Position numbers and translations under genes: made by a program
DNA from: Candidatus Bathyarchaeota archaeon
GTDB taxonomy: Archaea; Thermoproteota; Bathyarchaeia; TCS64
Direction: 5' to 3'
NCBI GenBank assembly: GCA_018652685.1
Contig: JABIBQ010000013.1
Span: 1-56,761 of the forward strand
DNA length: 56,761 bases
Shown here: in pieces, positions 427-54,800 of the stretch
Layout: the number at the start of each line of letters is the position of its first letter
Numbering within the stretch: the stretch's first letter is position 1
Notes under the pieces: model-generated
Database searches by the model: none
Told to the model about the DNA's origin: nothing
The model's input: the letters and a program-made list of their open reading frames with translations, nothing else

Positions 427-870
427 TCACTCGAAGGAGGTATAAGTCCAACTAAGGATGTCGCCGTCGTGCACGATCCACTGGTCCGCGCCCACAGGGC
501 CCGTCTGCCAGCCCTCGTCGTAGTAGTCCCACAGCCAGAAGCTGTTTGCCTCACCTCCGACACCGTCAATGGAGTTCAAGAAGACACCCCACTCAGAGCT
601 CTGGAGTTCTATTTCAGAGATCATACCTGTTGCGTTCAGGAAGTTTGTTCCCAATGGTACGCGGGTATCATTAAACCACGTGACTGTTTCATCCCCGAAA
701 TTAACCCTGATGCTGATAACGACCGTGTTGTCTTCAAGCTCCTCCAGGAGAAGTTCGTACTCGTGCTCTACCGACTGAAGTTGTCCGTTGTACTGGATTG
801 CGAGCACCCCCGCTAGAATAGTTGTGCAAAGCAGTGCCGCTGCTGCAAGTTTGTATGTCTGTTCACTCAT
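427..870 (-). CDS. membrane-anchored DUF4430 (transcobalamin C-terminal-like) protein
   Basis: This 147-residue protein has one N-terminal hydrophobic helix (about residues 8-26) and an extracellular domain. The C-terminal half has the DUF4430 layout: a WGVFLNSIDG stretch, an aromatic-rich segment FWLWDYYDEGW, and a closing DGDILSWTY strand. DUF4430 is related to the C-terminal domain of transcobalamin and often occurs with ECF vitamin transporters. Its ATG overlaps the stop of the upstream ECF S-component gene by four bases, so translation is probably coupled and the two proteins probably act together. A role as extracellular cobalamin or other vitamin binder is inference from family and context; no ligand residue can be proven here. 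Confidence 0.75.
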   Translation of the reverse strand: MSEQTYKLAAAALLCTTILAGVLAIQYNGQLQSVEHEYELLLEELEDNTVVISIRVNFGDETVTWFNDTRVPLGTNFLNATGMISEIELQSSEWGVFLNSIDGVGGEANSFWLWDYYDEGWQTGPVGADQWIVHDGDILSWTYTSFE

Positions 871-1418
871 TCACCTAACACCTTTTTTATTGAACTTGAT
901 AATGGTTTGAACCCTAATCCGAAGAACAGGGTATTGCTCAGGACATGTGCCAACATGAATGGGATACCTGTCATCAGCCCCACAGAGATGGGGATTCCGA
1001 CAGTGTAGGCTGAGATTATATTCGTGAATATATCATAGACAAAGGTCAGTGTGAATCCCATCACTGCGGCCCATGGGTCAACTCCATACCCCGATGGCCT
1101 GGGACCCTTCCCATACAAGCCACCAGCTACCCCGTACACAGCCTCCCCAAGCATGGTCGCTCCGAGAATGGGCAAGCTGAACCCGAAGGGATTGATGGTG
1201 CCATACACAAGCCAGACCATTATGCCTGTTGATGCACCCATGGTTGGTCCCATGATGAAGCCCGCCGTAAAGACTATCAAGTCCATGAATTTTACGTTGG
1301 CAACCCCGATGAGCAGAAAGTTAGAGGCTATGGCTGCCGCTGAAAGGAGGGCTACCATGGCGATCTTCCTTGGATCTGTCCTTGAGGTGTTCAAGATATC
1401 ATTGGATGGATCATCCAA
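867..1418 (-). CDS. ECF transporter S component (substrate-binding membrane subunit)
   Basis: A 183-residue membrane protein with about five or six hydrophobic segments (residues about 20-42, 45-65, 70-100, 118-140, 145-165). The glycine-rich pattern around FMDLIVFTAGFIMGPTMGA and the LGEAVYG segment are typical of energy-coupling-factor S components, which bind a vitamin or metal and dock on a shared ATPase/EcfT module encoded elsewhere. It heads a compact unit with the DUF4430 and DUF4443 genes. The partner suggests a corrinoid or another vitamin, but the substrate is not readable from the sequence. No EcfA or EcfT gene is in the window. Confidence 0.78.
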   Translation of the reverse strand: MDDPSNDILNTSRTDPRKIAMVALLSAAAIASNFLLIGVANVKFMDLIVFTAGFIMGPTMGASTGIMVWLVYGTINPFGFSLPILGATMLGEAVYGVAGGLYGKGPRPSGYGVDPWAAVMGFTLTFVYDIFTNIISAYTVGIPISVGLMTGIPFMLAHVLSNTLFFGLGFKPLSSSIKKVLGE

Positions 1419-1473: not shown

Positions 1474-1872
1474 ATGATCCAGTACTATGACGCCCCTGAT
1501 ATCAAGAAGAAGATCGAGATCATAGTAGACGTGCTCAAATTCGACCACGTGAACCTCGAAAACATACGTTACATCAGGAGCAGGGGGAGCAAGGCAAAGA
1601 GGACCATCGCTAGGGTCCACGGCCTCGGGAGGATCTGGCAACAATCACTGGATATGGAGCCTACATACGTCATAGAGGTGATACACGAGATTTTCGATTT
1701 CTACCCTCCAGAGGCACAGGACCGCACTCTCATTCACGAGATCATGCACATCCCCCACACGGCGAAAGGCGGCTTCAGACACCACAAGAACTACGTAACA
1801 TCGGCTAACGTGGATACCTGGCACAAACGTTACAAACAGCGTTACAAGGAGCTGGGCCTGGACAAACTATAA
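1474..1872 (+). CDS. putative zinc metallopeptidase (HEIMH motif)
   Basis: The 132-residue protein has a textbook HExxH zinc site, His88-Glu89-Ile-Met-His92, followed by a Gly-Gly-Phe-Arg-His-His stretch at 99-104 that can give a third ligand. Size and layout match the short archaeal 'putative metallopeptidase' family (COG4900-like). No signal peptide is visible, so it is probably cytoplasmic. It stands 25 bases ahead of a ubiquitin-like gene on the same strand and close to a JAMM peptidase, which raises the possibility of a joint role in protein modification or turnover. Its substrate is unknown. The antisense frame at 1444-1644 is a shadow. Confidence 0.7.
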   Translation: MIQYYDAPDIKKKIEIIVDVLKFDHVNLENIRYIRSRGSKAKRTIARVHGLGRIWQQSLDMEPTYVIEVIHEIFDFYPPEAQDRTLIHEIMHIPHTAKGGFRHHKNYVTSANVDTWHKRYKQRYKELGLDKL

Positions 1873-1897
1873 GAAAAGCCACTCATCTTGAGGAAAT

Positions 1898-2098
1898 GTG
1901 TACCCGAAACCGATGAAACTCAAGGTGGAGTCAGCCTCTACGCTTCGAGAGTTCATTTCAAGTCTTGGGGAGGACACCCTGTACGCCTTTGACAGGAGAG
2001 TTGTTGGGGTCGCTGTAAACAACAAGAAGCTGTGGGACTCGGCGAAGCTGAAGCCGGGGGACACGGTTGTGATTTTCCCGATTATTGTAGGTGGCTAA
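1898..2098 (+). CDS. MoaD/ThiS-like ubiquitin-fold protein ending in Gly-Gly (SAMP-like)
   Basis: A 66-residue protein with a beta-grasp profile: an N-terminal strand (MKLKVESASTLREFI), a middle strand with VVGVAVNNKKL, and the terminal segment LKPGDTVVIFPIIVGG. The C-terminal Gly-Gly is the mark of MoaD, ThiS, Urm1 and archaeal SAMP proteins, which are adenylated by an E1-like enzyme and then carry sulfur or are conjugated to lysines. The GTG at 1898 is preferred because GAGG lies four bases upstream; an ATG at 1913 would give a 61-residue protein and is also plausible. Its stop overlaps the stop of the convergent JAMM peptidase gene, a natural partner for removing such modifiers. Molybdopterin versus conjugation role cannot be settled here. 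Confidence 0.78.
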   Translation: MYPKPMKLKVESASTLREFISSLGEDTLYAFDRRVVGVAVNNKKLWDSAKLKPGDTVVIFPIIVGG

Positions 2099-2469
2099 TT
2101 GGATTTGACCTGAACAGGTATTGACTTTCCCTGTTTTGTGTAGGCAGCGACGTTATCCATCGAGTAAGGTGGGCCGATGATCAACATTATTCGGCCGTAG
2201 AAACTGTGCAAGTCCCTGGTCGAGGGATTCAGGTTCCCGCTGGGATGGCTGTGTGCCGTCCCGAGTATGCTGAAATCCATGGGAAGCATGTGGGCAGGGA
2301 AGCTGGCGGACCTCTTTGAGCCAAAGCCGAAGGGTGGGATCAGGTACTCAGTTATGTGATATTCGTCTCCAGATCGTTTGCCCCTAAGTAGAACGATTAC
2401 CTCGTTTGGGTGGTTGTCCTCGGCGAGGGCTTTCATCCCCTTGAAGACCTCCTTGTCGATCCGGATCAT
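2095..2469 (-). CDS. JAMM/MPN+ metalloprotease (Mov34-like deubiquitinase/desampylase type)
   Basis: The 124-residue protein is a single JAB1/MPN+ domain. The zinc site is complete: Glu23 in the NEVIVLL strand, then His73-Ser-His75 and, after exactly ten residues, Asp86 (H-x-H-x10-D), with the serine of the usual H-S-H-P-S motif. Archaeal members such as HvJAMM1 cleave SAMP proteins from targets and related bacterial enzymes trim MoaD/ThiS-like proteins. The gene is convergent with the Gly-Gly ubiquitin-like gene and they overlap by four bases at their ends. I infer that it processes or removes that modifier. Confidence 0.85.
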   Translation of the reverse strand: MIRIDKEVFKGMKALAEDNHPNEVIVLLRGKRSGDEYHITEYLIPPFGFGSKRSASFPAHMLPMDFSILGTAHSHPSGNLNPSTRDLHSFYGRIMLIIGPPYSMDNVAAYTKQGKSIPVQVKSN

Positions 2470-2873: not shown

Positions 2874-3446
2874 TTAGCCAACCCTAGGCTTGCAGATTAC
2901 TTCCAGCACCTTTGTGTCGAAGAACCTGTGCGTGTTACTAGGCAACAAGACCGTTGCTGAGTCCGCTCCACCACCGCTTCCACCTATGGCGATTACAGGC
3001 TCTCCTGCCTTTATTAAACCGGCATCGCAAGCCATACAGCTGATCTCAAGGCATACCTTGACTCCCTGGCTGAACAGCCTGAGGACATTGGCGATTATCT
3101 CATCAACCTGGATGGGACCGAACCTCTGCTTCACTGCCCTGCCGAGGCCGCCGAATGCATGGAGATGGTAGAATATCTTGGCACCGTTTGCCTCCATCTT
3201 CTCCTTGTTCTCGTCAACCATTCTGTGAACGTTTGGCTCGGTGAACCCCATCATGCCGGCTGACACGACAAGGTTGTACCCTTTGAATATCTCTGAGGCC
3301 AGCACGCCGGCGTAGCCCGTGTATGATGCGATTATAATATCCTTGATACCTAGTTCGTCGGCTCTCTTCTTTGCCAGCTTCAAGGTTTCTTCTGTATAGT
3401 CTTTGCCTTTTCCATCAAAATAGACGGACTCTATCGTGTGACTCAT
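2874..3446 (-). CDS. pyruvate kinase alpha/beta (C-terminal) domain-like protein
   Basis: A stand-alone 190-residue protein resembling the C-terminal alpha/beta domain of pyruvate kinase, found as a separate protein in many archaea. Visible features are the TEETLKLAKKRADELGI helix, an IIIASYTGYAG strand-turn typical of the fold, and a glycine-rich IAIGGSGGGADSATVL loop near residues 150-168. It lacks the catalytic TIM barrel, so it is not a pyruvate kinase; in pyruvate kinase this domain holds allosteric sites. It follows subunit C of the ATP synthase by 33 bases on the same strand and may be co-transcribed, though no functional link is known. Actual role unknown. Confidence 0.62.
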   Translation of the reverse strand: MSHTIESVYFDGKGKDYTEETLKLAKKRADELGIKDIIIASYTGYAGVLASEIFKGYNLVVSAGMMGFTEPNVHRMVDENKEKMEANGAKIFYHLHAFGGLGRAVKQRFGPIQVDEIIANVLRLFSQGVKVCLEISCMACDAGLIKAGEPVIAIGGSGGGADSATVLLPSNTHRFFDTKVLEVICKPRVG

Positions 3447-41999: not shown

Positions 42000-42515
42000 A
42001 TGAACAAACAATTCAAAACATTATTACTAGTTATATTCACAATAGGGATTTTTTCAATTCCAGCTATCGCCCAAGTTGCACCAGAAGAGGCATATGCGAT
42101 TGTCACAAAGGTTGATGCGCCAACGACGGTTGCTCCTGGAGCTACCTTTGAGGTCATTGTCACGATCGAGGCTAATCTCCCGGACGAGACATACGTGGAG
42201 GTTGGCATATACGACCCCGAATCATACGAGACGATGATCGATTACCAGGACGAGATATCCGGGTACGATGAGGCCTCCTATTCGTTTGAGCTGGAGGCTT
42301 TGGACGTCTTGGGTGACTTTGTGATGAACGCGGATGTCTTCTTCGAAATCGATGGGGAGTTATTGTTCACGGAAGGAAGCGAGATAATCGTCACAGTTTC
42401 TGTTCAGGAGGATGGTGGCGGTTCAGGGATACCGGGGTATCCTCTTATTGCACTCGTCTTTGGTCTTGGTCTAACTGCATTGATGTTGCAGAACACAAAG
42501 AAAACAATTATCTAA
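42000..42515 (+). CDS. small secreted protein with sorting-like C-terminal tail
   Basis: 171 residues: signal peptide (about 5-25, ending near IPAIAQ), an Ig-like beta domain (about 27-130; FEVIVTIEANLPDETYVEVG), a Gly-rich hinge, and a tail GIPGYP at 143-148 followed by a hydrophobic helix and KKTII. This tail mirrors the GIPSFP + helix + KER tail of the DUF4091 protein. I infer a shared C-terminal anchoring or processing signal of the archaeosortase type. Function of the domain unknown. Confidence 0.72.
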   Translation: MNKQFKTLLLVIFTIGIFSIPAIAQVAPEEAYAIVTKVDAPTTVAPGATFEVIVTIEANLPDETYVEVGIYDPESYETMIDYQDEISGYDEASYSFELEALDVLGDFVMNADVFFEIDGELLFTEGSEIIVTVSVQEDGGGSGIPGYPLIALVFGLGLTALMLQNTKKTII

Positions 42516-42527
42516 CCCATTTTTCTC

Positions 42528-43451
42528 TCATTTCTGCGCGCGCTGATGAGGCGTTCTAATTTTAATATACAGGATTCCTCGGTCAGAGTGTTTCTCTAGA
42601 ATGCAATATTCTAGATTCTGTTTTTGTATTATTGTTTCAAGTTTATCTAGATTATTATGATACTCTAAAATTATTTCCTGAATATTTGTTTTCTTTAACT
42701 CAATATTATTTAATACATCAAATTCACAACCCTCACAATCCATCTTAAGAACCTCAATTTCAGGACTCAAGGTTACAGCGTCAATCCATGAGCCTTTACC
42801 CTCTTCTGAATAGGATGTCTTTGATGCCCCTGACCATTCCTCGACATTAGTTATGTAAACTTGCCCAGGTTTTGCTTGTACAGCAACATTATAGGGATAG
42901 ATCATGTGTTCAAGATTATTGAGTGCAATATTTTCAACCATTAAATCATATTGTTTCTTTTGAGGTTCATAGGAATACACCTTTTTAGCTCCTTTTTTCG
43001 CGAAATATATCGCGGTATCACCTAATGAAGCACCTACATCACCAACAATTTTCCCTTGTACGTTTAATTTAGCATATTCATTATCAAAGAATGTCTGAAA
43101 AATGTGGCTATAAGAGGACAAATCGTTAGGGTCGATCTTAAAAATGAAATCATCTTTAAAACTAACCTGGTTTTCCTCAAAACTACATCCGACATTGACA
43201 AGTTTCAGAATAAAATAATGAACGCTCACTTCATGCGGAACAGTTCTATATAAAATAAGTCTATACGAGTTTTTATATCTAATTTCGATACCGCTTTTCA
43301 TGTTAACAAAATATAATAAAACTTCAACCCAGTTTTCAACGTAATACATGTTGAATAAAAGAAAACGAAGATGATTGAAAACACGATATTTCAAGCCGAC
43401 GAACATATGTGGATATAATATAATAGACATAAAGGATTTTTTACGGATCAA
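42528..43451 (-). CDS. FkbM family SAM-dependent methyltransferase
   Basis: 307 residues. Motif I is VGDVGASLGDTAIYFA (about 130-145), followed by KKVYSYEPQKKQYDLMVENI, and motif with EVLKMDCEGCEFDVL near 235-250; these are standard for FkbM enzymes, which methylate hydroxyl groups of glycans or small metabolites. Its composition is strongly AT-rich and it opens the surface island at 42-56 kb, so a surface-sugar substrate is likely. It converges with the small secreted protein gene (12 bases), and its last codons run through a GCGCGCGC octamer. Confidence 0.85.
   Translation of the reverse strand: MIRKKSFMSIILYPHMFVGLKYRVFNHLRFLLFNMYYVENWVEVLLYFVNMKSGIEIRYKNSYRLILYRTVPHEVSVHYFILKLVNVGCSFEENQVSFKDDFIFKIDPNDLSSYSHIFQTFFDNEYAKLNVQGKIVGDVGASLGDTAIYFAKKGAKKVYSYEPQKKQYDLMVENIALNNLEHMIYPYNVAVQAKPGQVYITNVEEWSGASKTSYSEEGKGSWIDAVTLSPEIEVLKMDCEGCEFDVLNNIELKKTNIQEIILEYHNNLDKLETIIQKQNLEYCILEKHSDRGILYIKIRTPHQRAQK
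42536..42543. repeat. GCGCGCGC octamer, copy 3
   Basis: Exact octamer just before the stop of the FkbM gene (minus strand), where the Gln-Arg-Ala-Gln codons near the protein end contain it, twelve to twenty bases from the end of the convergent gene. Confidence 0.55.
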
Positions 43452-43516
43452 GAGCTATGTATCTAGCGCGTGTTGAGTTTCGTGCTCATTAAATACATGA
43501 AAAGTATCGTAGAAGC

Positions 43517-44635
43517 ATGGAAGCTCGTGTGTATAAAAGTGGGGAAGAAGAAGCCATTGTTGAGCTTCTTGATGTTGTCTTTAGAGGATGGCCCAAATAT
43601 GATTTAACGGGAGACGCAGTTGATTTTTGGTGTTGGAAATATCAAGACTCTCCAACTCCATCTATGGTTCTAGTAATCGAAGAAGAGGGAAAACTTGTTT
43701 CTTCTTATCATTCTTGGAGACAAAAAGTTTGGGTTCAGGGAAAAACATGGGTCTTTGAATCAGGAATGGATTTTACTGTTCATCCAGAATACAGACGAAG
43801 AGGATTATCATTAAAAATCTCACAATTGGCGCGAGAAATTGGACAAAAAGAAAAAATCCCGGTAAATAACACAGTAACGGAGCAACCAATTATCCTCCAC
43901 GGGCACAATAAGAACGAAGCTGTACATCTTTTCCCAAAAAAACTTGTAAATATGGCCAGGATCAACGATATAAGTGAACAATTACGTGTGATGCCCGTAA
44001 AGAATGGATGGATCATAAACATTGGATATCGAACACTGGACATATTGAATAGTGCAGTAAATATGTTTAAACCAAAACCAAATATTGGGAAAATAACAAC
44101 TCGTCTTGTAACTGCGTTTCCAGAGTCAATAAACGATTATTGGAACATAATAAAAATAGACCTCGATTATTCACTCGAAATCAGCCAAGAGTATCTAAAC
44201 TGGAGGTATTGTGACTCAAGAATAGGTGGATATCAAGTTCATGTTGCTGAAGAAAATGGTCAACCAGTTGGTTACGTTGTTACGCGAATCAATAAAAAAT
44301 ATCCGGAGTATCCTATTGGATACATTGTAGAACTCTCATATCTTCCAAATAGAACTGAAATCGGATACAAACTTCTGGAAACAGCGTTACCATACCTATG
44401 TGACGTAAATGTTGTGAATTTTTTAACAATAGAAAATCATCCCGATATAGAGTTACTAAAAATGTTCGGATACCATAACAGTCGAATAAACATTCACTCG
44501 TATTACGAGAACTATATTCCACCAGACCCACTTGAACCACTAAATAATAGTCATCCAAATAAGATACATCTCTCTTGGGGGGACTATGATATATTGCCAG
44601 TAAAAATGCCAAAAAAATCAGAAACAATTTCTTAA
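43517..44635 (+). CDS. GNAT-superfamily acetyltransferase-like protein (full-length)
   Basis: 372 residues. The acetyl-CoA-binding motif A is seen in FTVHPEYRRRGLSLKISQLA (about 90-110; R-x-x-G-x pattern) after the typical strands VYKSGEEEAIVELLDVV and VLVIEEEGKLVSSYHSW. The C-terminal half is a second GNAT-like fold. The tail HLSWGDYDILPV and the stretch NSRINIH recur in the truncated relative at 56.3-56.7 kb. A role in acylating a surface glycan or lipid is inference. AT-rich. Confidence 0.75.
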   Translation: MEARVYKSGEEEAIVELLDVVFRGWPKYDLTGDAVDFWCWKYQDSPTPSMVLVIEEEGKLVSSYHSWRQKVWVQGKTWVFESGMDFTVHPEYRRRGLSLKISQLAREIGQKEKIPVNNTVTEQPIILHGHNKNEAVHLFPKKLVNMARINDISEQLRVMPVKNGWIINIGYRTLDILNSAVNMFKPKPNIGKITTRLVTAFPESINDYWNIIKIDLDYSLEISQEYLNWRYCDSRIGGYQVHVAEENGQPVGYVVTRINKKYPEYPIGYIVELSYLPNRTEIGYKLLETALPYLCDVNVVNFLTIENHPDIELLKMFGYHNSRINIHSYYENYIPPDPLEPLNNSHPNKIHLSWGDYDILPVKMPKKSETIS

Positions 44636-44770
44636 CCTAGGCGCGGGCAACTTGTAGTATTCAAGTACGCTTGTTTCTTGATCATTCAACTAGTATGTTT
44701 AATACCATTTAGTCGAACGTGAGGGATTGCTTGTTATTGGTAACATATTGTAACTTACACAGTTGTAAAT

Positions 44771-44780
44771 ATATAATAAT
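44771..44780 (+). promoter_or_regulatory. TATA box of coiled-coil gene 1
   Basis: ATATAATAAT followed by TGAAATC. The same sequence stands at exactly the same distance (31 bases from its end to the ATG) before the paralogue at 51052, so the promoter was duplicated and kept. Supports ATG 44811 as start rather than the GTG at 44781. Confidence 0.55.
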
Positions 44781-44810
44781 GTGAAATCCAACGTTCTATT
44801 AGTGAACACT

Positions 44811-45341
44811 ATGATAAAAAACAAGAAGGCGCTGGGTTTTCTATTAATTTTTTCCCTAATGGCATCAGGTTATTTAATTGAATCAGCTCTAGGCGTAGGT
44901 ACACCAGGTTGGCTTCAAAGAATCTGGGATCGTATAAGCCAGATAACTATTGAAATGGGGATTCTTCAAAATCAAAATGAAGTTCTTGACCAACGGATAG
45001 CAGAACTCGAAGCTTCTGGAGGATCAGATGTACCAGATACTATGTTTTGGGAATTGACAATGCAGAGTCCTTCAGACCCTACATTTGTAAATATTGAGGT
45101 TGATCTTGAAGGATACAAAACGGTGCAAATATCTTATGGAGTGTATACAAGTGATTCTTGGTTTTTAGTACAATGGCTTTCTGACTCAGGGATGCCGATT
45201 GGTCCAAGTGTAGTAGCTGGGCACGATCTTTTCGAATCGGATGCTATATCGACTCCGGTTATGAGCAATACATTGAACATATATGTTGATAGAAACATTG
45301 ATTCCGAATTAGTCTCAGTTATGATTTACGCCACAAAATAA
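44811..45341 (+). CDS. secreted coiled-coil protein 1 with unique C-terminal domain
   Basis: About 176 residues from ATG 44811 (GTG 44781 would add ten). After a signal helix comes GTPGWLQRIWDRISQI and the coiled coil GILQNQNEVLDQRIAELEAS, then a beta-rich C-terminal domain of about 100 residues (MFWELTMQSPSD...VQWLSDSG). The N-terminal half is almost the same as in the protein at 51.1-51.7 kb, while the C-terminal domains are unrelated. The layout (short stalk, variable head) is that of a trimeric fibre or binding protein. Probably extracellular; function unknown. Confidence 0.72.
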   Translation: MIKNKKALGFLLIFSLMASGYLIESALGVGTPGWLQRIWDRISQITIEMGILQNQNEVLDQRIAELEASGGSDVPDTMFWELTMQSPSDPTFVNIEVDLEGYKTVQISYGVYTSDSWFLVQWLSDSGMPIGPSVVAGHDLFESDAISTPVMSNTLNIYVDRNIDSELVSVMIYATK

Positions 45342-45348
45342 CCACCTC

Positions 45349-45399
45349 ACTTCTTCCCTCTATTATCCAGTAGTTCTAGACGAGGGCTAGGGAGGAAGT
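45349..45399 (+). terminator. hairpin after coiled-coil gene 1
   Basis: ACTTCTTCCCT (45349-45359) pairs with AGGGAGGAAGT (45389-45399): eleven pairs, one of them G-U, starting eight bases after the stop codon. No T-run follows, so it may be an RNA-stabilising or processing element rather than a terminator. The rest of the spacer to 45628 shows only an AT box before the glycosyltransferase. Confidence 0.4.
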
Positions 45400-45628
45400 A
45401 CTTAGCGATGAGCTAGGTACCAAAGTCGGGTGCGTTTAATCCATTCTTATCTCATCACTTCATAATATCAACGGTGCTCAGCGTATATTCTCAAATGCCA
45501 CCAATTAAGGTGAGAAAATGTAGAGTTTATCCTTCTTTTGATTAGGTGTAAAACTGTAATCCTAGTATTCATCAGGGTCTAAGGTATGAAATAATAAAAT
45601 ATAGTCGCGCCCGATCATTTTAAAACGA

Positions 45629-46825
45629 ATGTCTCGAATTAAATTAGTCGCACCCAACTTGAGAATTTTACATATTAATGATACACTTGAGTCCAGAGGT
45701 GGTGCAGAAGCATACATGTTTAACCTAGGTTCAGTTCAAACAGAAGAGGGCCATAGTGTTGACTATTATGGAATCAGCATTGAAAGGTCACATGTTAAAA
45801 GATTGAGAATATTAACGAGAATATACAATCCATTTTCATTCTATGGAATAATAAACAAAATAAGGAAATTCAATCCAGATATTATTCATTGCCACATGAT
45901 TTCTATGGCAGTCTCTCCTTCAGTACTTCACGCAGCAAAATTAATGGGAATACCGATAGCTATGACTGTTCATGACTATCAGTATATTTGTCCAAACAGA
46001 TTTTTCATATACTCCGATAATCAACCATGCAAGCATGGTTTCAATCACAAATGTATTACAACAGATTGCTGGCCAAAAGATCAGGATGCAAGATACTTTA
46101 TATTAAATATATATCATGTATTAAAAACCATAGTTCATCGATGGGGAATAAAAAACACGGTTGATGTTTTTTTCGCTCCTTCAAAAAGTCTGGCGTATTG
46201 GTTAAAAAAGGATCTAAAAATTGAAGCAGTTTTAACTCCGTTATTTTCGGATTTAGAAGGAATTAATCCCTCTAATATAGAAAAAAACAATAAAATAGTG
46301 TATATGGGAAGGATGGACATCGAAAAAGGAATCGAATATCTTTTTGAAGCTATGAAAATAGTAGAGATAGAGGTTCCAGAAGTTCAGTTAATTATGATTG
46401 GAAAGGGAGAATTGCTCGAACATTACAAAAGTTTGGTTTCCGATATGGGATTGGGAGAAATTATCGATTTTAAAGGATTTATAAAGAGGGAAGAACTGAT
46501 TGAAACAGTAATGTCCGCAGAGATGGTGGTGATTCCATCGTTTGGGGCAGAGATGTTTGGTTTAGTAGGTTTAGAAGCTAGTTTATTACAAAGACCATTG
46601 GTTTTGAGTGATAATTTTGGTCTATCTGAGAGAGTCGATGAATTAAAAGTTGGATTATTATTTGAATCAGGTAATAGTGAAGATCTGGCAAAGAAGATAT
46701 TAGAACTTTTACAAAACTTTGAGTTGGTAAAAGAACTTTCGGAGAATACGAAAGATATAGCTGCACATTACTCAAAAAATAAACATTATGAATTGATACT
46801 TAGCGAATATAACAACATCATTTAG
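45629..46825 (+). CDS. GT4-family glycosyltransferase
   Basis: 398 residues with a GT-B fold: LHINDTLESRGGAEAYMFNL at the start (donor/acceptor loop), PIAMTVHDYQYICPN, and the C-terminal half with YMGRMDIEKGIEYLFEA (about 228-243) and the E-x7-E motif in PSFGAEMFGLVGLEAS (about 300-316). Retaining enzyme that probably adds a sugar from a nucleotide donor onto a lipid-linked or surface glycan. Very AT-rich. Its start is preceded by an AT box about 27 bases upstream and no Shine-Dalgarno, so it is likely leaderless. Confidence 0.9.
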   Translation: MSRIKLVAPNLRILHINDTLESRGGAEAYMFNLGSVQTEEGHSVDYYGISIERSHVKRLRILTRIYNPFSFYGIINKIRKFNPDIIHCHMISMAVSPSVLHAAKLMGIPIAMTVHDYQYICPNRFFIYSDNQPCKHGFNHKCITTDCWPKDQDARYFILNIYHVLKTIVHRWGIKNTVDVFFAPSKSLAYWLKKDLKIEAVLTPLFSDLEGINPSNIEKNNKIVYMGRMDIEKGIEYLFEAMKIVEIEVPEVQLIMIGKGELLEHYKSLVSDMGLGEIIDFKGFIKREELIETVMSAEMVVIPSFGAEMFGLVGLEASLLQRPLVLSDNFGLSERVDELKVGLLFESGNSEDLAKKILELLQNFELVKELSENTKDIAAHYSKNKHYELILSEYNNII

Positions 46826-46885
46826 GATTTTTTTTTAATACAAATAGTTTACGTGTGCGCATGTAAAGGTGAGAAATTGTTGAGT

Positions 46886-47347
46886 TTATCCTTTTTTAGG
46901 TTTAGCGTGACTCTGTTTTCTTTTAGCCATTATTTGTTCTATGAGATATGTTGTGCTTATTCCCTCCACATACGGAGTAATCATCGCTTCTCCACCAACA
47001 GATTCGATGTACTCAACAGGTCGCGGATCAACCTTGTCATTGCCATGGAAATAATACTTTAGATTGTATCCCTCAGAGACAAGTTGACGCATAACATCTG
47101 ATGGGTTCCAGCTAAGGGAATCTCGTACTTCATCCACATATCTAATTGACCTAACTACTTCTTTTCTTTTCTCAAAAGGAATAAAGGACTCTCTCTTGTT
47201 TTCCGCTACCAATTTATCATTTGGTACCTCGATAACCAAGTAGTCGCACATAGATTTGCAGTTTTTCAGAAACTCTACATGCCCCCAGTGGAGTATGTCT
47301 GCGACCATGTCTGCGTATCCTACTCTGGCTTTTTTTGGGTCAGTCAA
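46886..47347 (-). CDS. ethanolamine-phosphate-cytidylyltransferase-like nucleotidyltransferase, copy 1
   Basis: 153 residues. Nucleotidyltransferase motifs: HWGH (20-23), RYVDEV (69-74), FHGND (100-104) and EGISTTYL (128-135). The last two match eukaryotic PCYT2-type enzymes (HGND and GVSTT), which form CDP-ethanolamine from CTP and phosphoethanolamine. About 85 percent identical by eye to copy 2 at 50.5 kb. Position 40 is Glu where copy 2 and the family have Gly (VIGVD), and 42 is Pro where copy 2 has Asp, so this copy may be altered or weaker. TTG start. The upstream ~55 bases are also duplicated. Confidence 0.82.
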   Translation of the reverse strand: MTDPKKARVGYADMVADILHWGHVEFLKNCKSMCDYLVIEVPNDKLVAENKRESFIPFEKRKEVVRSIRYVDEVRDSLSWNPSDVMRQLVSEGYNLKYYFHGNDKVDPRPVEYIESVGGEAMITPYVEGISTTYLIEQIMAKRKQSHAKPKKG

Positions 47348-47497
47348 TTATTATCGAGAATATATTTCATAAACTCAATTATTAATTATACATATCAACG
47401 CGCGATTTATGATTTTTTGAACAAGGACCCTCTTAGAGCTTAGATAAATCTTCAGCATATTACCGAGTCTTGTTTATTTGGTAATTGGAAAAAAGGG

Positions 47498-49378
47498 TTA
47501 CTCGTATATTGCTACTATGGTCTCATCTGCAACAATCTTCCTCCAATACCAAAGCCTCGTTGACAAGACATTCCCCTCATCATCAGTCCAATGCAGGAAA
47601 CTGTACACCTCACCACCCACCCATTTCCTTGTAGTTGGCGTAAACCGGTGCCAACCAGCACTCAAAGACAAGTCAACTGGATTTGAGTACCAAACATCAT
47701 CTACACGAACACCACACTCGATGGGGTTCTCGTTCAAAGCTGCTTCAATGTGAACCACAGGATTATCCAAGAGAGTTAATGAAACTGTTCTATCACGGAC
47801 AACCCAAACCCACTTACATCTAGACTGGTAGCCCTCAAGTTCCACATTTAATACATGAACTCCATCAGGGACCCCTGGTACGGTGAGTTCTCCATTTATG
47901 TCAGATAATCCAACAGGTTCTCCATCCAGAGTTACCGTAACTTCAAACAGGGGTAGCTCTGAGATATCTAGTATGGTCAGGGATATTGTGCTGGTTCTTG
48001 GCGTATAAACCGTGTAAAGTGATGAGGTTTCTTGGATGTTTTTCCAGTATACTCTGTTTGTGTTGATGTTTGTTCCTTCTTGGTTTTCCCAGTGACTGAA
48101 CTGATAGACTGTTGATTCTATTTTTATTGCTCCATCTGCTGCAAATCGATGCCATCCAGGTTCTAGATCGACGCTAAATTGTGTGCTCTGCCATGTTCCG
48201 TCGACAGAAATAGAGACACCCTCAACAACCTCAACACCCAAACGCGCACCAAACTGAAAGCTTAATGGCGCGCTCTTAAAACTGTAAACCTTGCCATCAA
48301 ATGATCCTATGTAGACCTTACCATCTGCCACAGCAGGAGAAGACTCTATAGTGCCTCCGGTGGTGTATTCCCAGTTCTTTGCTCCTGTTTCCGCGTCCAG
48401 ACAGTAGACTTTTTTGTCATTTGATCCTATGTAGACCATATCGCCTACTACAGCTGGAGAAGAAACTGTACCGCTTCCGGTTGTGTATTCCCAGTTTAAT
48501 GCTCCGGTAGTCGCGTCCAGACAGTAGACCTTGCCATCATATGATCCTATGTAGACGCTATTACCCATAACGGCAGGAGAAGAAACTACCACGCTCCCGG
48601 CTGTGTATTCCCAGTTTTTTGCTCCTGTTTCTGCGTCCAGACAGTAGACTTTGTAGTCATCTGATCCGATGTAGACTTTACCATTTGCCACAGCAGGAGA
48701 AGAATATACTGGGCTCCCAGTTTGATATTCCCAGTTTAATGCTCCGGTAGCCGCATCCAAACAGTAGACCTTGCCATCAATTGATCCTATGTAGACCATA
48801 CCACCTACCACAGCAGGAGAAGAATATACTATGCCCCCGGTTGTGTATTCCCAGTTCTTTGCTCCGGTATCCGCGTCCAAACTGTAGACCTTGTGGTTAT
48901 ATGATCCTATGTAGACCATACCACCTACCACAGCAGGAGAAGAACCTACATAAGATCCGGTATCATATTCCCAGTTCTTTGCTCCTGTTTCCGCGTCCAG
49001 ACAATAGACATTGTTGTCATTTGATCCTATGTAGACCATACCACCTACCACAGCAGGAGAAGAATACGCCAAACTCCCAGTTTGATATTCCCAGTTCATT
49101 GCTCCGGTAGCCGCATCCAAACAGTAGACCTTGCCATTATTTGATCCTATGTAGACCATACCACCTACCACAGCAGGAGAAGAATGTACCACGCCCCCGG
49201 TTGTGTATTCCCAGTTCAATACGCCTAGTATAGGTGCACTTGCAACCGTGGTTCCTGTGTGTTCTAGATCAGCGCGGAACATAGGCCAATCCTGTGCAAA
49301 TGCTCCAATTGATACAGTAGATAATGCAAACATTAGCGCTAATAATAACACTACTAACCTTGATTTCCTATCCAACAT
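47498..49378 (-). CDS. secreted PQQ-type eight-blade propeller protein with shared C-terminal module
   Basis: 626 residues. Signal peptide (1-28, ending AFAQ), then eight repeats of 40 residues (about 40-370) of the form SSPAVVGGMVYIGSNNG...VYCLDAATG: PQQ-like propeller blades without any visible cofactor-binding enzyme signature. Residues about 375-626 are the module shared with the 1110-residue protein: an InlB-repeat-like domain (DGTWQSTQFSVDLEPGWHRF), a PEGA/carboxypeptidase-regulatory-like domain (STISLTILD...VTVTLDGEPVGLSDINGE) and a second InlB-like copy ending VAIYE. No membrane tail, so it is attached by other means or released. Confidence 0.82.
   Translation of the reverse strand: MLDRKSRLVVLLLALMFALSTVSIGAFAQDWPMFRADLEHTGTTVASAPILGVLNWEYTTGGVVHSSPAVVGGMVYIGSNNGKVYCLDAATGAMNWEYQTGSLAYSSPAVVGGMVYIGSNDNNVYCLDAETGAKNWEYDTGSYVGSSPAVVGGMVYIGSYNHKVYSLDADTGAKNWEYTTGGIVYSSPAVVGGMVYIGSIDGKVYCLDAATGALNWEYQTGSPVYSSPAVANGKVYIGSDDYKVYCLDAETGAKNWEYTAGSVVVSSPAVMGNSVYIGSYDGKVYCLDATTGALNWEYTTGSGTVSSPAVVGDMVYIGSNDKKVYCLDAETGAKNWEYTTGGTIESSPAVADGKVYIGSFDGKVYSFKSAPLSFQFGARLGVEVVEGVSISVDGTWQSTQFSVDLEPGWHRFAADGAIKIESTVYQFSHWENQEGTNINTNRVYWKNIQETSSLYTVYTPRTSTISLTILDISELPLFEVTVTLDGEPVGLSDINGELTVPGVPDGVHVLNVELEGYQSRCKWVWVVRDRTVSLTLLDNPVVHIEAALNENPIECGVRVDDVWYSNPVDLSLSAGWHRFTPTTRKWVGGEVYSFLHWTDDEGNVLSTRLWYWRKIVADETIVAIYE
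47501..48255 (-). repeat. duplicated 755-base segment coding for the C-terminal module, copy 1
   Basis: Aligns without net length change to 51826-52580. Long stretches are identical, for example the coding of VYSFLHW and NINTNRVYW. The two copies belong to proteins with unrelated repeat types. Confidence 0.75.
48301..49215 (-). repeat. 120-base tandem repeats coding for propeller blades
   Basis: The coding DNA repeats with a 120-base period; the phrase TGATCCTATGTAGACC recurs at about 48423, 48783, 48903, 49023 and 49143, usually followed by CACCTACCACAGCAGGAGA. The copies around 48780-49160 are nearly identical at DNA level, which suggests recent expansion or gene conversion. Confidence 0.75.
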
Positions 49379-49461
49379 TGACCATCACTTCATTATATCT
49401 GTTAGTGGTAATATAATAATTGGTGAATAATATCGTCAACGTGATTCCCCGGAATAACCAA

Positions 49462-49469
49462 GCGCGCGC
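49462..49469. repeat. intergenic GCGCGCGC octamer, copy 4
   Basis: Exact octamer in the divergent spacer between the PQQ propeller gene and the LicD gene. Shorter variants CGCGCG at 47400-47405 and CGCGCGC at 50965-50971 lie upstream of the two cytidylyltransferase genes. Confidence 0.6.
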
Positions 49470-49537
49470 TGAGTTGATAATCTAGAATTGATGCTATTAC
49501 AAGAATAAAAAAAGGAGTTAAAATTTATATCACAATT

Positions 49538-50413
49538 TTGGTTAATGCTACTGGTCTTACTACTACGGAGATTCAAGGATTGCTTACCAATTCAAAGCTA
49601 AAAAAACTTCAGGAGATTGAACTTTTCATACTTAAAGATATAATCAAAATATGTGAAAAGTTCAATATTGAATATTTTATGACTTGTGGTAGTGTATTGG
49701 GGGCAGTTCGGCATGGTGGTTTCATTCCGTGGGATGACGATACGGATATTGGCATGACCAGAGATAACTATGATAAATTCCTTTCAATAGCGATATCTGA
49801 ATTGGATGAAAACTTGTTTTTACAAAACATATATACTGATTCCGACTCTCCATATTGTTACACAAAAATACGGAGGAATAATACAAAATTAATAGTATAC
49901 AAGGTGAGAAATATTAATTGTCATCAAGGTATTTTCGTAGACATAGTTCCATTTGATAAAACCCCGGATGATTTTATATTAAGAAAAATACACATTGCTA
50001 AAACAAGATTATATGGCATTCTACATTATGCTAAACAAAATCTAGATTATGATAGAAGATCAGGTACCTTGGAAGTTAATTGTAGATACATATTACATAG
50101 ATTTCGTCAATATATTGTAAAGCCTATACCGAAGAGATTATTGTTTAATCTATTGGATAAAGAAAGGCGACGTTACAATAATAAATCTATCAAATCAGAG
50201 TCATATATTTCATTTGATCATCCAATAGTTAACAAAGACCATATATTTCCAGTTAAAAAAATAAAATTCGAAGACATATATGCAAATGTTCCAAACAATT
50301 GTGATGCGTATTTAACAATTTTATACGGTGATTATATGACCCCGCCACCTCCAAATAAAAGACAAGCACATAACATGATAATAGTGGACGTAGATGTGAC
50401 ACGCGCCTCGTAA
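49538..50413 (+). CDS. LicD family phosphotransferase
   Basis: 291 residues. The LicD/fukutin-type nucleotidyltransferase motif is at 51-72, FMTCGSVLGAVRHGGFIPWD then DDTDIGM, with the metal-binding Asp cluster. LicD enzymes transfer phosphocholine or similar groups from CDP donors to sugars; a cytidylyltransferase lies next to it. The TTG at 49538 is a weak start: GGAG is 21 bases upstream and an AT box is only 8 bases before it, so a TTG at 49580 is an alternative. Very AT-rich codon use marks the island. Confidence 0.85.
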   Translation: MVNATGLTTTEIQGLLTNSKLKKLQEIELFILKDIIKICEKFNIEYFMTCGSVLGAVRHGGFIPWDDDTDIGMTRDNYDKFLSIAISELDENLFLQNIYTDSDSPYCYTKIRRNNTKLIVYKVRNINCHQGIFVDIVPFDKTPDDFILRKIHIAKTRLYGILHYAKQNLDYDRRSGTLEVNCRYILHRFRQYIVKPIPKRLLFNLLDKERRRYNNKSIKSESYISFDHPIVNKDHIFPVKKIKFEDIYANVPNNCDAYLTILYGDYMTPPPPNKRQAHNMIIVDVDVTRAS

Positions 50414-50465
50414 TGGTAAATGAACTAAGCTACCTGATGTCCAATCACAAGAACAGAGTTGGAAA

Positions 50466-50912
50466 TTATCTCACGTTTTGTTTTCCCCGATCCACGATCA
50501 ACCCAGTGAGATAGGTTGTGCTTATTCCCTCCACATACGGAGTAATCCTAGCCTCTCCACCAACAGATTCAATATACTCAACCGCTCGCGGATCAACCTT
50601 GTCATCGCCATGGAAATAATATTTCAGATTATATCCCTCAGAGACAAGCTGACTCATTAAAACAGCAGGGTTCCAACTAATGGAATCTCGTACTTCATCC
50701 ACATATCTAATTGACCCAACTACCATCTTCCTTTTCTCAAACGAAATAAAGGACCCCCTCTTGTTTTCCGCTACCAATTTATCATTATCTACCCCTATAA
50801 CCAGATAATCGCACATTGATTTGCAGTTTTTCAGAAACTCCACATGCCCCCAGTGGAGTATGTCTGCGACCATATCGGCGTATCCTACTATGGCGTTTTT
50901 TGGGTCAGTCAA
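50466..50912 (-). CDS. ethanolamine-phosphate-cytidylyltransferase-like nucleotidyltransferase, copy 2
   Basis: 148 residues. HWGH (20-23), the family stretch CDYLVIGVDND (about 34-44) with intact Gly and Asp, GSFISFEKRKMVV resembling the eukaryotic loop, FHGDD (100-104) and EGISTTYL (128-135). It is the better-preserved member of the pair. It should make a CDP-linked alcohol or phosphoalcohol for the LicD enzyme encoded 50 bases away and convergent with it. TTG start inferred because the first strand (IVGYADMV) is needed for the Rossmann fold. Confidence 0.84.
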   Translation of the reverse strand: MTDPKNAIVGYADMVADILHWGHVEFLKNCKSMCDYLVIGVDNDKLVAENKRGSFISFEKRKMVVGSIRYVDEVRDSISWNPAVLMSQLVSEGYNLKYYFHGDDKVDPRAVEYIESVGGEARITPYVEGISTTYLTGLIVDRGKQNVR

Positions 50913-51011
50913 TCATTATCGAGAATATATCTCATAAACTCAATTATTAATTAATACATATCAACGCGCGCTTATTTTATTTTACATACTGTAAAATATC
51001 TATTTGAAAAA

Positions 51012-51021
51012 ATATAATAAT
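51012..51021 (+). promoter_or_regulatory. TATA box of coiled-coil gene 2
   Basis: ATATAATAAT then TATGAAATC, the same sequence and the same 31-base distance to the ATG as for coiled-coil gene 1. Confidence 0.55.
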
Positions 51022-51051
51022 ATGAAATCTATTAGAGGATTAGTGATTATT

Positions 51052-51708
51052 ATGATAAAGCCCAAGAAATTATTTGGTCTGTTATTACTTGTTTCTTTGA
51101 TCGCATCAGTTTACTTGGTTGACTCAGCCCAAGGAGGAAGTACGCCAAGTTGGCTCCAAAGAATCTGGAAACGTATTGGACAGATACGCATGAATATGGG
51201 AATTCTTCAAAATCAAAACGAGGTTCTTGAAGAGAGAATCACTGAACTTGAACTCGTTGACGATCAAAACCAGGCTCTTGAACAACGGATAACAGATTTA
51301 GAAGCTGCTGGATCGAGTGGTGACTTCGACCAAAGAGTAAGTGATCTTGAATGGCGAGCTGACAACATTGAAGACGATGTGCTGGATTTGGTGTATCAGA
51401 TCAGTAGTGGACCTGATTATGATAGCGGATGGATGTCTGGATATACGGGTGAGGGAAGTTGGTCTTTGTCCTTCTATCACGATTTGTATACAACGAATGT
51501 CTATTTCATATTATTAGGATGGGATTCATCTGGGTCTATTCACCAGATCAACTACCCGGGTGAAGATGGTGGTCCCTGGAGTGCTGTTGGGGCATACATA
51601 CACAGTGTGGAATCAACTCAAGGACAGATTAAGATATATAACTACGAAGAAGGAACGAATTCACCATATGTAAACGTCCGAGTGCTAATGTGGTCGCTTG
51701 ATGAATAA
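51052..51708 (+). CDS. secreted coiled-coil protein 2 with unique C-terminal domain
   Basis: About 218 residues from ATG 51052 (TTG 51004 would add sixteen). Signal helix, then TPSWLQRIWKRIGQIRMNMG and a longer coiled coil than in protein 1 (RITELELVDDQNQALEQRI, RVSDLEWRADNIEDDVLDLV), then a beta-rich C-terminal domain of about 80 residues (GEGSWSLSFYHDLYTTNVYF...). The head has no relation to that of protein 1. Probably an oligomeric extracellular fibre. It stands between the cytidylyltransferase (divergent) and the large propeller gene (convergent). Confidence 0.72.
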   Translation: MIKPKKLFGLLLLVSLIASVYLVDSAQGGSTPSWLQRIWKRIGQIRMNMGILQNQNEVLEERITELELVDDQNQALEQRITDLEAAGSSGDFDQRVSDLEWRADNIEDDVLDLVYQISSGPDYDSGWMSGYTGEGSWSLSFYHDLYTTNVYFILLGWDSSGSIHQINYPGEDGGPWSAVGAYIHSVESTQGQIKIYNYEEGTNSPYVNVRVLMWSLDE

Positions 51709-51805
51709 CCAGATCGTGCTTACCAGAGTTCCGATTAATTATTGGAATTCCATTGGCAAAGACTCTAAGAAATCCATCCTTGCATTTATCGACCTGTATA
51801 AAAAA

Positions 51806-51813
51806 GCGCGCGC
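51806..51813. repeat. intergenic GCGCGCGC octamer, copy 5
   Basis: Exact octamer ten bases from the end of the large propeller gene, between it and coiled-coil gene 2 (convergent). Confidence 0.6.
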
Positions 51814-51822
51814 CAGAGTCAT

Positions 51823-54800
51823 TCACCCGTATATTGCTACTATGGTCTCATCGGCAACAATCTTCCTCCAATACCACAACCTCGTCGACAAGATATTCCC
51901 CTCAGTATCAGCCCAATGCAAGAAACTGTACACCTCACCACCCACCCATTTCCTAGTCGTAGGAGTAAACCGGTGCCAACCCACATCCAACGACGCATCC
52001 ACAGGGTTAGAGTACCAATCATCATCCACACGAACACTACACACAGTAGAAGTCTCTCCTATTACCGCTTCTATGTGAACCACAGGATTATCCAAGAGAG
52101 TTAACGACACGGCTCTATCACGGACAACCCAAACCCACTTAGTTCTCAACCTATGGGCCCCATCATCCACCGTGAAAACATGAACCCCATCAAGGACACC
52201 GGGTATGGTGAGTTCTCCATTTACGTCAGATAGGCCAACAGGTTCTCCATCCAGAGTTACCGCTACTTCAAACAGTGGAAGCTCTGAGTCATCTAGTATG
52301 GTCAAGGATATTGTGCTGGTTCTCTGTGTATAAACTGCGTAAAGTGATGCTGATTCTTGGATGTTTCTCCAGTATACTCTGTTTGTGTTGATGTTGGTTC
52401 CTTCTTGGTTTTCCCAGTGGCTGAATGTATAGATTGTGGAGTCTATTTTTATTGCGCCATCGGCAGCGATTCGATGCCATCCAGGATCCAGATCAACACT
52501 GAACTGAGTAGTTTCCCATGTTCCGTCTACTGAAATATAGACACCATCAACAACCTCACCTTCCACACGCGCACCCAGTTGAATACTTGGGTATGGGTTT
52601 AATGAAAATGCATCAGAGGGACTTGTATGACCTGTTTCAACAGATTTTATCCAAATAACATAATCTCCTGCAATTACGCTTGGAATTGAAATGTCAAGGC
52701 TATAACTGCCGTCTGAAGAGGCTGTAACAGATGATATAAGTCCTGATTCTCCATTCCATGAATCTATTGGACTCCAGTACACCTCAACAGAGGTATCGGG
52801 AACTATCTCACTGAGCCCTCCACTGACCACGATAACGTCTTCAGGCCAGCCACTTGTTGAAGATAAACTGGGAGATCTTATCTGGTAGAGTTCACTTTGG
52901 TCAATCTTTACTAGGTAAGCGTCGTAGTCACCGTTTCCAAACGACCTAGTTCGACCAACAACAAGTAATCCCCCATCTGAGAGAGCGGTAAACGCTCTTG
53001 CCTCGTCTCGGTTGGTTTCGCCATAAGTCAACTCTAACAATTGGTTTCCATAAGGGTCCGTCTTTACTACGTAAATATCATGTTGGCCAGCTCCGTATGA
53101 AAGAGTGTAGCCTGTTAACAGATAGTTTCCTTGGCTGTCCTCAATAAGGTCGTACCCGTATTCTGATCCGGTCCCTCCGTACGTGTTTTCCCAGACAAGG
53201 GCTCCGTTTGCATTGGTTTTCACGAGGTAAAAATCATGACCGTTTACGCCTTTTCGTCCTCCGATCACGTAGCCTCCTTCGTCCAACTCAATTATTGAGT
53301 CCCCCCAATCTGAATATGATCCTCCAAAAGTAGTACTCCAGACAATGTTTCCTAAGGAATCTGTTTTTATTAAGTAAGCATCGTAGCTGCCAGCACCAAA
53401 AGAGTAAGTTGAGCCAACAATGGCGAACCCTCCGTCACTTGTCTCGATTACATCTTCTCCGGCATCATCGTTTGTTCCTCCATACGTTTGTTCCCAGAGA
53501 AGAGTACCGTCCTCATCAACGCCGACTAGGAAGACTTCATACCCGTTTACATCATCCGTACGATACCCCGTTATGACGTATCCACCTGTACTCACTTCGG
53601 TAACAGAATAGCTCCAATGGGACTCGCTTCCATAGGTATAGGTCCACAATACTTCTCCGTCCGTATTGGTTTTAATCAAGTATACACTAGGGCTTCCTAC
53701 TCCGAAGCTCATTGTGTACCCTGAGATGAGATACGAACCATCACTTGTCTCAATTACCGAGTACCCACGGTCCTCATCAATTCCTCCATAGTTCTTTTCC
53801 CATTTCACATTCAAATTAGAGTCAGTTTTGACAAGATAGACGTCATATCCTTGGGCCGGTGAAAAAGTTGTGAATCCAGCAAACAAGAAATCTCCATCGG
53901 ATAACTCTATCACGGACTCGGCGAAATCTCCACCAGTGCCACCAATATTAGCAGCGCTATCTCCTGGAGTTTCGGGTACTTCATCTGGAACAAATGCTTC
54001 GATTAATAACAAGTAGAAATCATTGCTCCCAGCGCCAACCGAGTCAGTGTATCCTGTAACCAGATAGCCGCCGTTACCTAGTTCAGATACTGAGTGCGCA
54101 TAATCGTCTGCAACTCCGCCATATGTTGTACTCCAGATCAGATTTCCATCGATATCGGTTTGACCAAGATAGATGTCGCTTCCTGTTGGAGATTCATAGG
54201 TGTCAGAGGTACCTGCGATTAGGTATCCTTCGTTTTCGAGTTCTATTACGGAGTATCCTACAACTGATTCAACTCCTCCGTATGTGTTTTGCCAGAGGAT
54301 ATCTCCATTTTCATTGGTATTGATAAGGAATGCGTCCCAGTTTTCGTTGCCCATCTTTAATCCAGTGATAAGATAACTGCCTTGGCTAGTCTCGATGACT
54401 GAATATCCCCAATCATAACTGGGGCCTCCATATGTTCTCCCCCAGATCAAGTCTCCGTTTTGGTCGGTTTTTAGGAGGTACACGTCCCCGGGGAATGGGT
54501 TAGCCTGACCTACGACAAGGTAGCCTCCCTCACTGAGTTCTATTACCTCCCACCCTTGCTCGGATTCAATGGTACCATAAGTTTGAGTCCAAACGGTATT
54601 CCCATCAGCATCAGTCTTGATTAAATAGACATCACTATCTCCTGCACCAAAGGACCCGGTTTGACCTGTTACAAGATATCCTCCATCACTCAACTCAATT
54701 ACATCATAGCCTCTGTCCCAACTACCTCCTCCGAATGTTTTCTCCCAGACAACCTCTCCATATATATCGGTTTTTATGAGGTAAACATCAGCTCCACCAG

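Follow-up and report, generated by a model that had tools for sequence, protein, structure and literature searches.

In Haloferax volcanii, HvJAMM1 removes the ubiquitin-like protein (Ubl) SAMP1 from MoaE (PMC4443979), and in Thermus thermophilus a JAMM homologue affects conjugates of TtuB (review PMC3980101). According to PMC4895103, AfJAMM clusters with HvJAMM2 and neither enzyme is active as an isolated protein, which suggests that partner proteins may be needed. Comparable activities come together in eukaryotes, where Wss1 both cuts Top1 and acts on SUMO conjugates (PMC6945406) and SPRTN is controlled through the attachment and removal of mono-ubiquitin (PMC11088880). Makarova and Koonin (PMC2948915) reported that linkage of archaeal Jab genes to Ubl genes is rare. 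The arrangement described here is therefore at least unusual, and a conserved Ubl-JAMM neighbourhood that also includes a gene for a probable SprT-like protease is a concrete archaeal candidate for a dedicated modifier-protease pair. No description of this three-gene group was found in the literature searched.

The window, that is, the whole stretch of 56,761 nucleotides that was analysed, is one entire contig (C88) of a Bathyarchaeota MAG with a genome of 2.38 Mb. Three genes at 1474-2469 encode a zincin metallopeptidase, a Ubl and a JAMM peptidase (Table 1). The original prediction placed these genes and their key residues correctly: the Gly-Gly tail, the Glu23/His73/His75/Asp86 site and the four-base overlap of the Ubl and JAMM genes (2095-2098, stop codon on stop codon) were all confirmed, the families are assigned by Pfam matches that exceed the curated cut-offs for all three proteins, and the active sites are invariant in relatives. 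As the JAMM gene is on the opposite strand, it lies outside any single operon with the zincin and Ubl genes. Elsewhere in the window, a stand-alone pyruvate-kinase alpha/beta-domain (PF02887) protein is encoded at 2874-3446, just 3' of an ATP synthase-like gene row, and G+C falls from ~0.47 to 0.36-0.41 across the 10 kb from 42000 to 52000, a stretch that may have come from foreign DNA as an island or from faulty binning, the contamination of the genome being 8.7%. The window yielded no tRNA, and no specific family of the defence and phage libraries was matched.

Table 1. Features of the zincin-Ubl-JAMM locus (positions in the window).
Feature	Position	Strand	Remarks
ECF transporter S component-like neighbour	867..1418	-	PF12822 E=2e-5, below cut-off; divergent from zincin
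Zincin metallopeptidase, SprT-like/PF18894	1474..1872	+	132 aa; Pfam E=1.2e-16
HEIMH zinc-binding motif, zincin residues 88-92	1735..1749	+	invariant H88, E89, H92
H104 of zincin, probable third ligand	1783-1785	+	invariant in 22 and 29 homologues
Ubl, ThiS/MoaD/SAMP-type	1898..2098	+	66 aa, GTG start; PF02597 ThiS E=4.9e-9
Gly-Gly codons, Ubl C-terminus	2090..2095	+	direct reading; invariant in 21 relatives
JAMM/Prok-JAB metalloisopeptidase, AfJAMM type	2095..2469	-	124 aa; PF14464 Prok-JAB E=1.7e-10
JAMM motif H73-S-H75-x7-S83-x2-D86	2212..2253	-	invariant in 24 homologues
Glu23 of JAMM	2401-2403	-	invariant in 24 homologues

The zincin belongs to PF18894 (61.4 bits against a cut-off of 23.7, HExxH intact), as do all 29 members of the zincin set, and residues H88, E89, H92 and H104 are invariant in both homologue sets examined (22 and 29 proteins). 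Identity is 55-74% inside the window's family, and homologues occur throughout the phylum. The match to the SprT-like family PF10263 falls below its cut-off (14.4 against 25.6 bits), with a faint SprT-like Pfam match in 8 of the 29 zincins (best E 4.7e-4). The AlphaFold (AF2) model is confident (pLDDT 91), and its first PDB matches are human SPRTN (6mdx/6mdw) followed by the archaeal selecase of Methanocaldococcus, all with weak E-values; the match to 6mdx is itself weak (prob 0.93, E 0.048, TM 0.42), and there were no PDB matches at E<=0.001. A literature search for PF18894 returned one unrelated prophage paper. The zincin may be a SprT-like protease for protein-DNA adducts, a role suggested by its fold and gene context.

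The Ubl begins with a conserved Met-(Tyr/Phe)-Pro and ends in the Gly-Gly that is invariant among its relatives, all of which (21/21) also match PF02597. Its AF2 model is a beta-grasp (pLDDT 86) resembling MoaD (2q5w_D, prob 1.00), TtuB (5ztb_D, prob 0.99) and SAMP1, with probabilities of 0.96-1.00 and E-values of 0.06 or worse, as is to be expected for a protein of 66 residues. The Pfam match, beta-grasp model and terminal Gly-Gly together place it in the ThiS/MoaD/SAMP fold. It is one of six ThiS-type proteins encoded in the genome, of which one adjoins the sole MoaE (contig C46), two adjoin E1 genes, one of these being also next to a PALP enzyme, and two lie beside aldehyde ferredoxin oxidoreductase-like genes identified by sequence reading rather than by profile. 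The other five have 19-22 of 66 residues in common with the window Ubl, whose family forms one clade apart from them (support 0.88). An assignment of the window Ubl as the MoaD of molybdopterin synthase was rejected, as it scores 26.2 bits against a cut-off of 66.15 for TIGR01682 and the MoaE gene adjoins that of another MoaD; the separation from molybdopterin MoaD on which the original prediction depended is thus upheld. That prediction also noted that no E1-like gene was in view, which holds within the window but not for the genome, where two ThiF/E1 genes are present on other contigs. Attachment of the Ubl to lysines via E1, as a SAMP-like modifier, is a predicted conjugation. No E1 was seen in 7 of the 25 Ubl genomes, including G008, G012 and G030 at 94% completeness. 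On contig C9 (L131:6985-9593) the PALP enzyme, Ubl and E1 genes form one row without a JAMM gene, like bacterial cysteine-synthase/MoaD/E1 operons. On contig C95 a second MoaD-like Ubl gene lies near a topoisomerase IB gene and beside an aldehyde ferredoxin oxidoreductase-like gene (sequence reading). Because the pairing with the oxidoreductase-like gene is kept in genus g1, the proximity to topoisomerase IB was taken to be incidental.

The JAMM protein, whose gene is the genome's single Prok-JAB member, carries a complete JAMM/MPN+ zinc site, in which S74 is invariant along with E23, H73, H75, S83 and D86. The complete peptidase described in the original prediction therefore stands, but the protein is more like AfJAMM (1r5x/1oi0, E=2e-13; next chain 2kks, 0.006) than the proven desampylase HvJAMM1. 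A candidate assignment to the HvJAMM1 type was rejected, because NCBIfam desamp_Halo (NF041370) requires 130 bits and the window protein scores 18.8. The JAMM may act on the window Ubl as a deconjugase.

Conservation of the neighbourhood in related genomes had been named beforehand as a test, and the neighbourhood recurs across two genera, in 11 genomes altogether. In all 11 the zincin and Ubl genes are adjacent and co-oriented. The gap between matched coding ends is 28 bases in the window's genus (six genomes) and 34-51 bases in genus g2 (five genomes), and the Ubl copies in these pairs are 52-80% identical to that of the window. This tight two-gene unit suggests co-transcription. The JAMM gene converges at 1-15 bases in 7 of the 11; in the remaining four, all of the window's genus, an ORF of ~199 residues without a Pfam match separates it from the Ubl gene. 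This intervening ORF (L094:4721-5320; also L093, L095 and L096) probably encodes a membrane protein. On the upstream side an ECF-like transporter gene (family F2, which adjoins the zincin gene in f1 loci) and other genes are conserved, and on the side beyond the JAMM gene the order is shuffled among related loci. The zincin-Ubl-JAMM arrangement is real and inherited, and the retained zincin-Ubl pair is not a product of chance. Four genomes of other genera (G010, G011, G018 and G020) have zincin and JAMM genes within ~3 kb and no Ubl gene there, so the zincin-JAMM linkage probably predates the place of the Ubl between them. No Ubl remnant was found beside the zincin gene in f1 loci that lack an adjacent Ubl gene.

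Of 101 related genomes, 53 carry the JAMM, 43 the zincin and 30 the Ubl at E<=0.01; the weakest of the Ubl matches are generic MoaD-like proteins, and we adopted a count of 25 in the order. Strong matches to the Ubl profile are confined to the window's own family and family f3, the others being generic MoaD-like. Four genomes (G016, G028-G030) have the Ubl with neither JAMM nor zincin, four others (G009, G012, G017, G021) have it with JAMM only, and both JAMM and zincin are widespread without a window-type Ubl; in a sample of 300 Thermoproteota genomes, 133 have the zincin (PF18894). Within the order, presence of the Ubl is correlated neither with the zincin (p=0.38) nor with the JAMM (p=0.17). 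Co-occurrence of zincin and JAMM (p=6e-6 raw) is not significant when stratified by family (p=0.10). Since each of the three is found without the others, the group is not a closed system; it is a lineage-specific assembly. In f3 and genus g6 (L120, L121, L122, L125, L126) the Ubl gene is divergent from a gene for an Mrr-like nuclease/HTH protein (PF04471), and the genomes with this pairing have no zincin. The nuclease neighbourhood is possibly the older context of the Ubl.

The zincin has another strong context. Outside the window's family, topoisomerase IB is encoded directly 3' of the zincin gene and co-oriented with it, typically at ~140 bases, in 43 of the 61 loci where a zincin was called (62 were named, L159-L220); one example was identified by Pfam (PF02919, PF01028, PF14370), and the rest either cluster with it by sequence or are fragments that could be assigned from their sequence. 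In these loci (e.g. L160:6001-8196) DUF167 and release-factor-like genes often come next after the pair. The adjacency occurs, in the sampled genomes, in one Bathyarchaeia family, f8 (assigned by position). Across the Bathyarchaeia, all 43 zincin genomes have topoisomerase IB and none of the 27 genomes without topoisomerase IB has a zincin (p=2e-8; family-stratified z=4.7), an association inflated by genome incompleteness; when only the 54 good genomes are counted (zincin in 25, topoisomerase IB in 45), p is ~0.002, a hand estimate from tallies. There is no association phylum-wide (p=0.41), and across 40 phylum-wide loci no zincin neighbour is conserved beyond within-family synteny. In three f27 loci a gene for an OB-fold SSB-like protein, identified by sequence reading, precedes the zincin gene.

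The reading that we tentatively prefer, while holding it to be doubtful, combines analogy to the eukaryotic enzymes with gene context: a SprT-like protease acquired a SAMP-like Ubl in two Bathyarchaeota genera, with the JAMM as deconjugase. The ancestral task of the zincin would be proteolysis of protein adducts on DNA. In the two genera its gene would have gained a co-transcribed gene for a SAMP/MoaD/TtuB-like Ubl, which here meets the single Prok-JAB/JAMM gene of the genome tail to tail. Of the two ThiF-type E1s encoded elsewhere, one would adenylate the Ubl at its Gly-Gly, and the Ubl would be joined to lysines of the zincin itself or of DNA-bound substrates. Conjugated Ubl might then recruit or restrain the zincin, as ubiquitin does with SPRTN and SUMO with Wss1, until the JAMM takes it off again. 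The identities of the genes, their intact active sites, the conserved zincin-Ubl unit and the presence of E1 and JAMM genes in the genome are established and fit this scheme, in which co-transcription, conjugation, target, the role at DNA adducts and the action of the JAMM on this Ubl are all putative. Also in its favour are the zincin-JAMM linkage in genomes with no Ubl gene there, the faint SprT-like and SPRTN matches of the zincin, its topoisomerase IB and SSB-like contexts, the distinctness of the Ubl from MoaD and from the Ubls beside E1 genes, and the precedents of Wss1, SPRTN and HvJAMM1. Against it stand the absence of a correlation of the Ubl with zincin or JAMM within the order, the Mrr-like nuclease context of the Ubl in f3 and g6, the absence of a phylum-wide link to topoisomerase IB and the confinement of that adjacency to f8 in the sampled genomes, the weak fold matches, the loss of significance of zincin-JAMM co-occurrence on stratification, the Ubl genomes in which no E1 was seen and the AfJAMM/HvJAMM2 type of the JAMM, which is reported to be inactive by itself.

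About as likely, and likewise short of even probability, is a chance linkage in a lineage-specific gene order with no common function. The Ubl would then be a usual sulfur carrier of the TtuB/SAMP2 type for tRNA 2-thiolation, whose gene was placed behind the zincin gene once, in the ancestor of the two genera, and then kept. A single insertion event would account for all 11 genomes, TtuB and MoaD are among the fold matches, and the Ubl gene is found at different genomic sites in other genera, occurs in f3 without zincin and JAMM, and shows no significant co-occurrence with either within the order. It is less easily reconciled with the zincin-Ubl unit, which has stayed tight (28-51 bases) over the whole range of Ubl divergence while the genes beyond the JAMM were shuffled, or with retention of the JAMM gene on the far side despite its opposite strand.

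The original prediction proposed a minimal modifier system in which the HExxH protein is an undescribed third member; as weighed here, such a system would be self-contained and that member a second Ubl-specific peptidase or isopeptidase. The 11 conserved neighbourhoods favour this, and the title of a study cited in PMC6945406 names yeast Wss1 a SUMO-dependent isopeptidase. However, the parts occur without each other, in four genomes an extra ORF separates the JAMM gene from the Ubl gene, and the HExxH protein is a zincin found in far more of the Thermoproteota than the strong Ubl matches, which are limited to two families, its strongest other context being topoisomerase IB and not a Ubl; we consider such a system improbable, and the interpretation as a whole is partly supported. 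Still more improbable is sulfur assimilation of the CysO/Mec type, with the JAMM liberating cysteine, or some different product, from a Ubl and the zincin as a bystander. Bacterial ThiS/MoaD-JAB-cysteine synthase operons are known (Iyer 2006, PMC1779556), and the cysteine-synthase-like PALP-Ubl-E1 row on C9 lacks a JAMM of its own, the window JAMM being the sole Prok-JAB gene. But the window Ubl is in a separate clade from the PALP-linked one, its neighbours (ECF S component-like, zincin and PK_C proteins) include no sulfur gene, and the JAMM matches AfJAMM far better than 2kks.

Returning to the protease-modifier reading that we prefer, the arrangement is a hint, short of proof, that a DNA-repair protease is under a primitive form of ubiquitin-assisted control. 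It is unlikely that the system is a forerunner in archaea of ubiquitin/SUMO-assisted DNA-protein-crosslink repair, in which a SPRTN-like zincin would act on trapped topoisomerase IB, with a dedicated small modifier encoded on the shared transcript and a JAMM to reset it. The link between PF18894 and topoisomerase IB also offers a testable function for a widespread archaeal protein family and, if it holds, would date ubiquitin-assisted removal of trapped topoisomerases to before eukaryotes.

Among known systems, MoaD-MoaE molybdopterin synthase has the same beta-grasp fold and Gly-Gly end as the window Ubl, but the dedicated MoaD of this genome is a distinct gene beside its only MoaE. Unlike CysO/Mec, the window Ubl and JAMM have no neighbouring cysteine synthase, the PALP enzyme being encoded on a different contig, together with a separate Ubl and an E1. 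The Thermus thermophilus TtuB-TtuC-JAMM system has a Ubl of similar size (~65 residues) which the predicted fold matches, although the window Ubl has no adjoining thiolation enzyme gene. As in the SAMP-UbaA-HvJAMM system of Haloferax volcanii, there is a small MoaD/ThiS-fold Gly-Gly modifier, a ThiF-type E1 in the genome and a full-motif JAMM; in contrast to that system, the JAMM is AfJAMM-like and not of the proven HvJAMM1 type, and the Ubl gene is coupled to a gene for a SprT-like zincin. This zincin differs from SPRTN, Wss1 and SprT in belonging to PF18894, not PF10263, and at 132 residues is too short for separate DNA-, ubiquitin- or SUMO-binding modules, but it resembles them in its HExxH with a downstream His, in having SPRTN as its first, weak PDB matches, in its faint SprT-like Pfam match and in its topoisomerase IB neighbour in f8.
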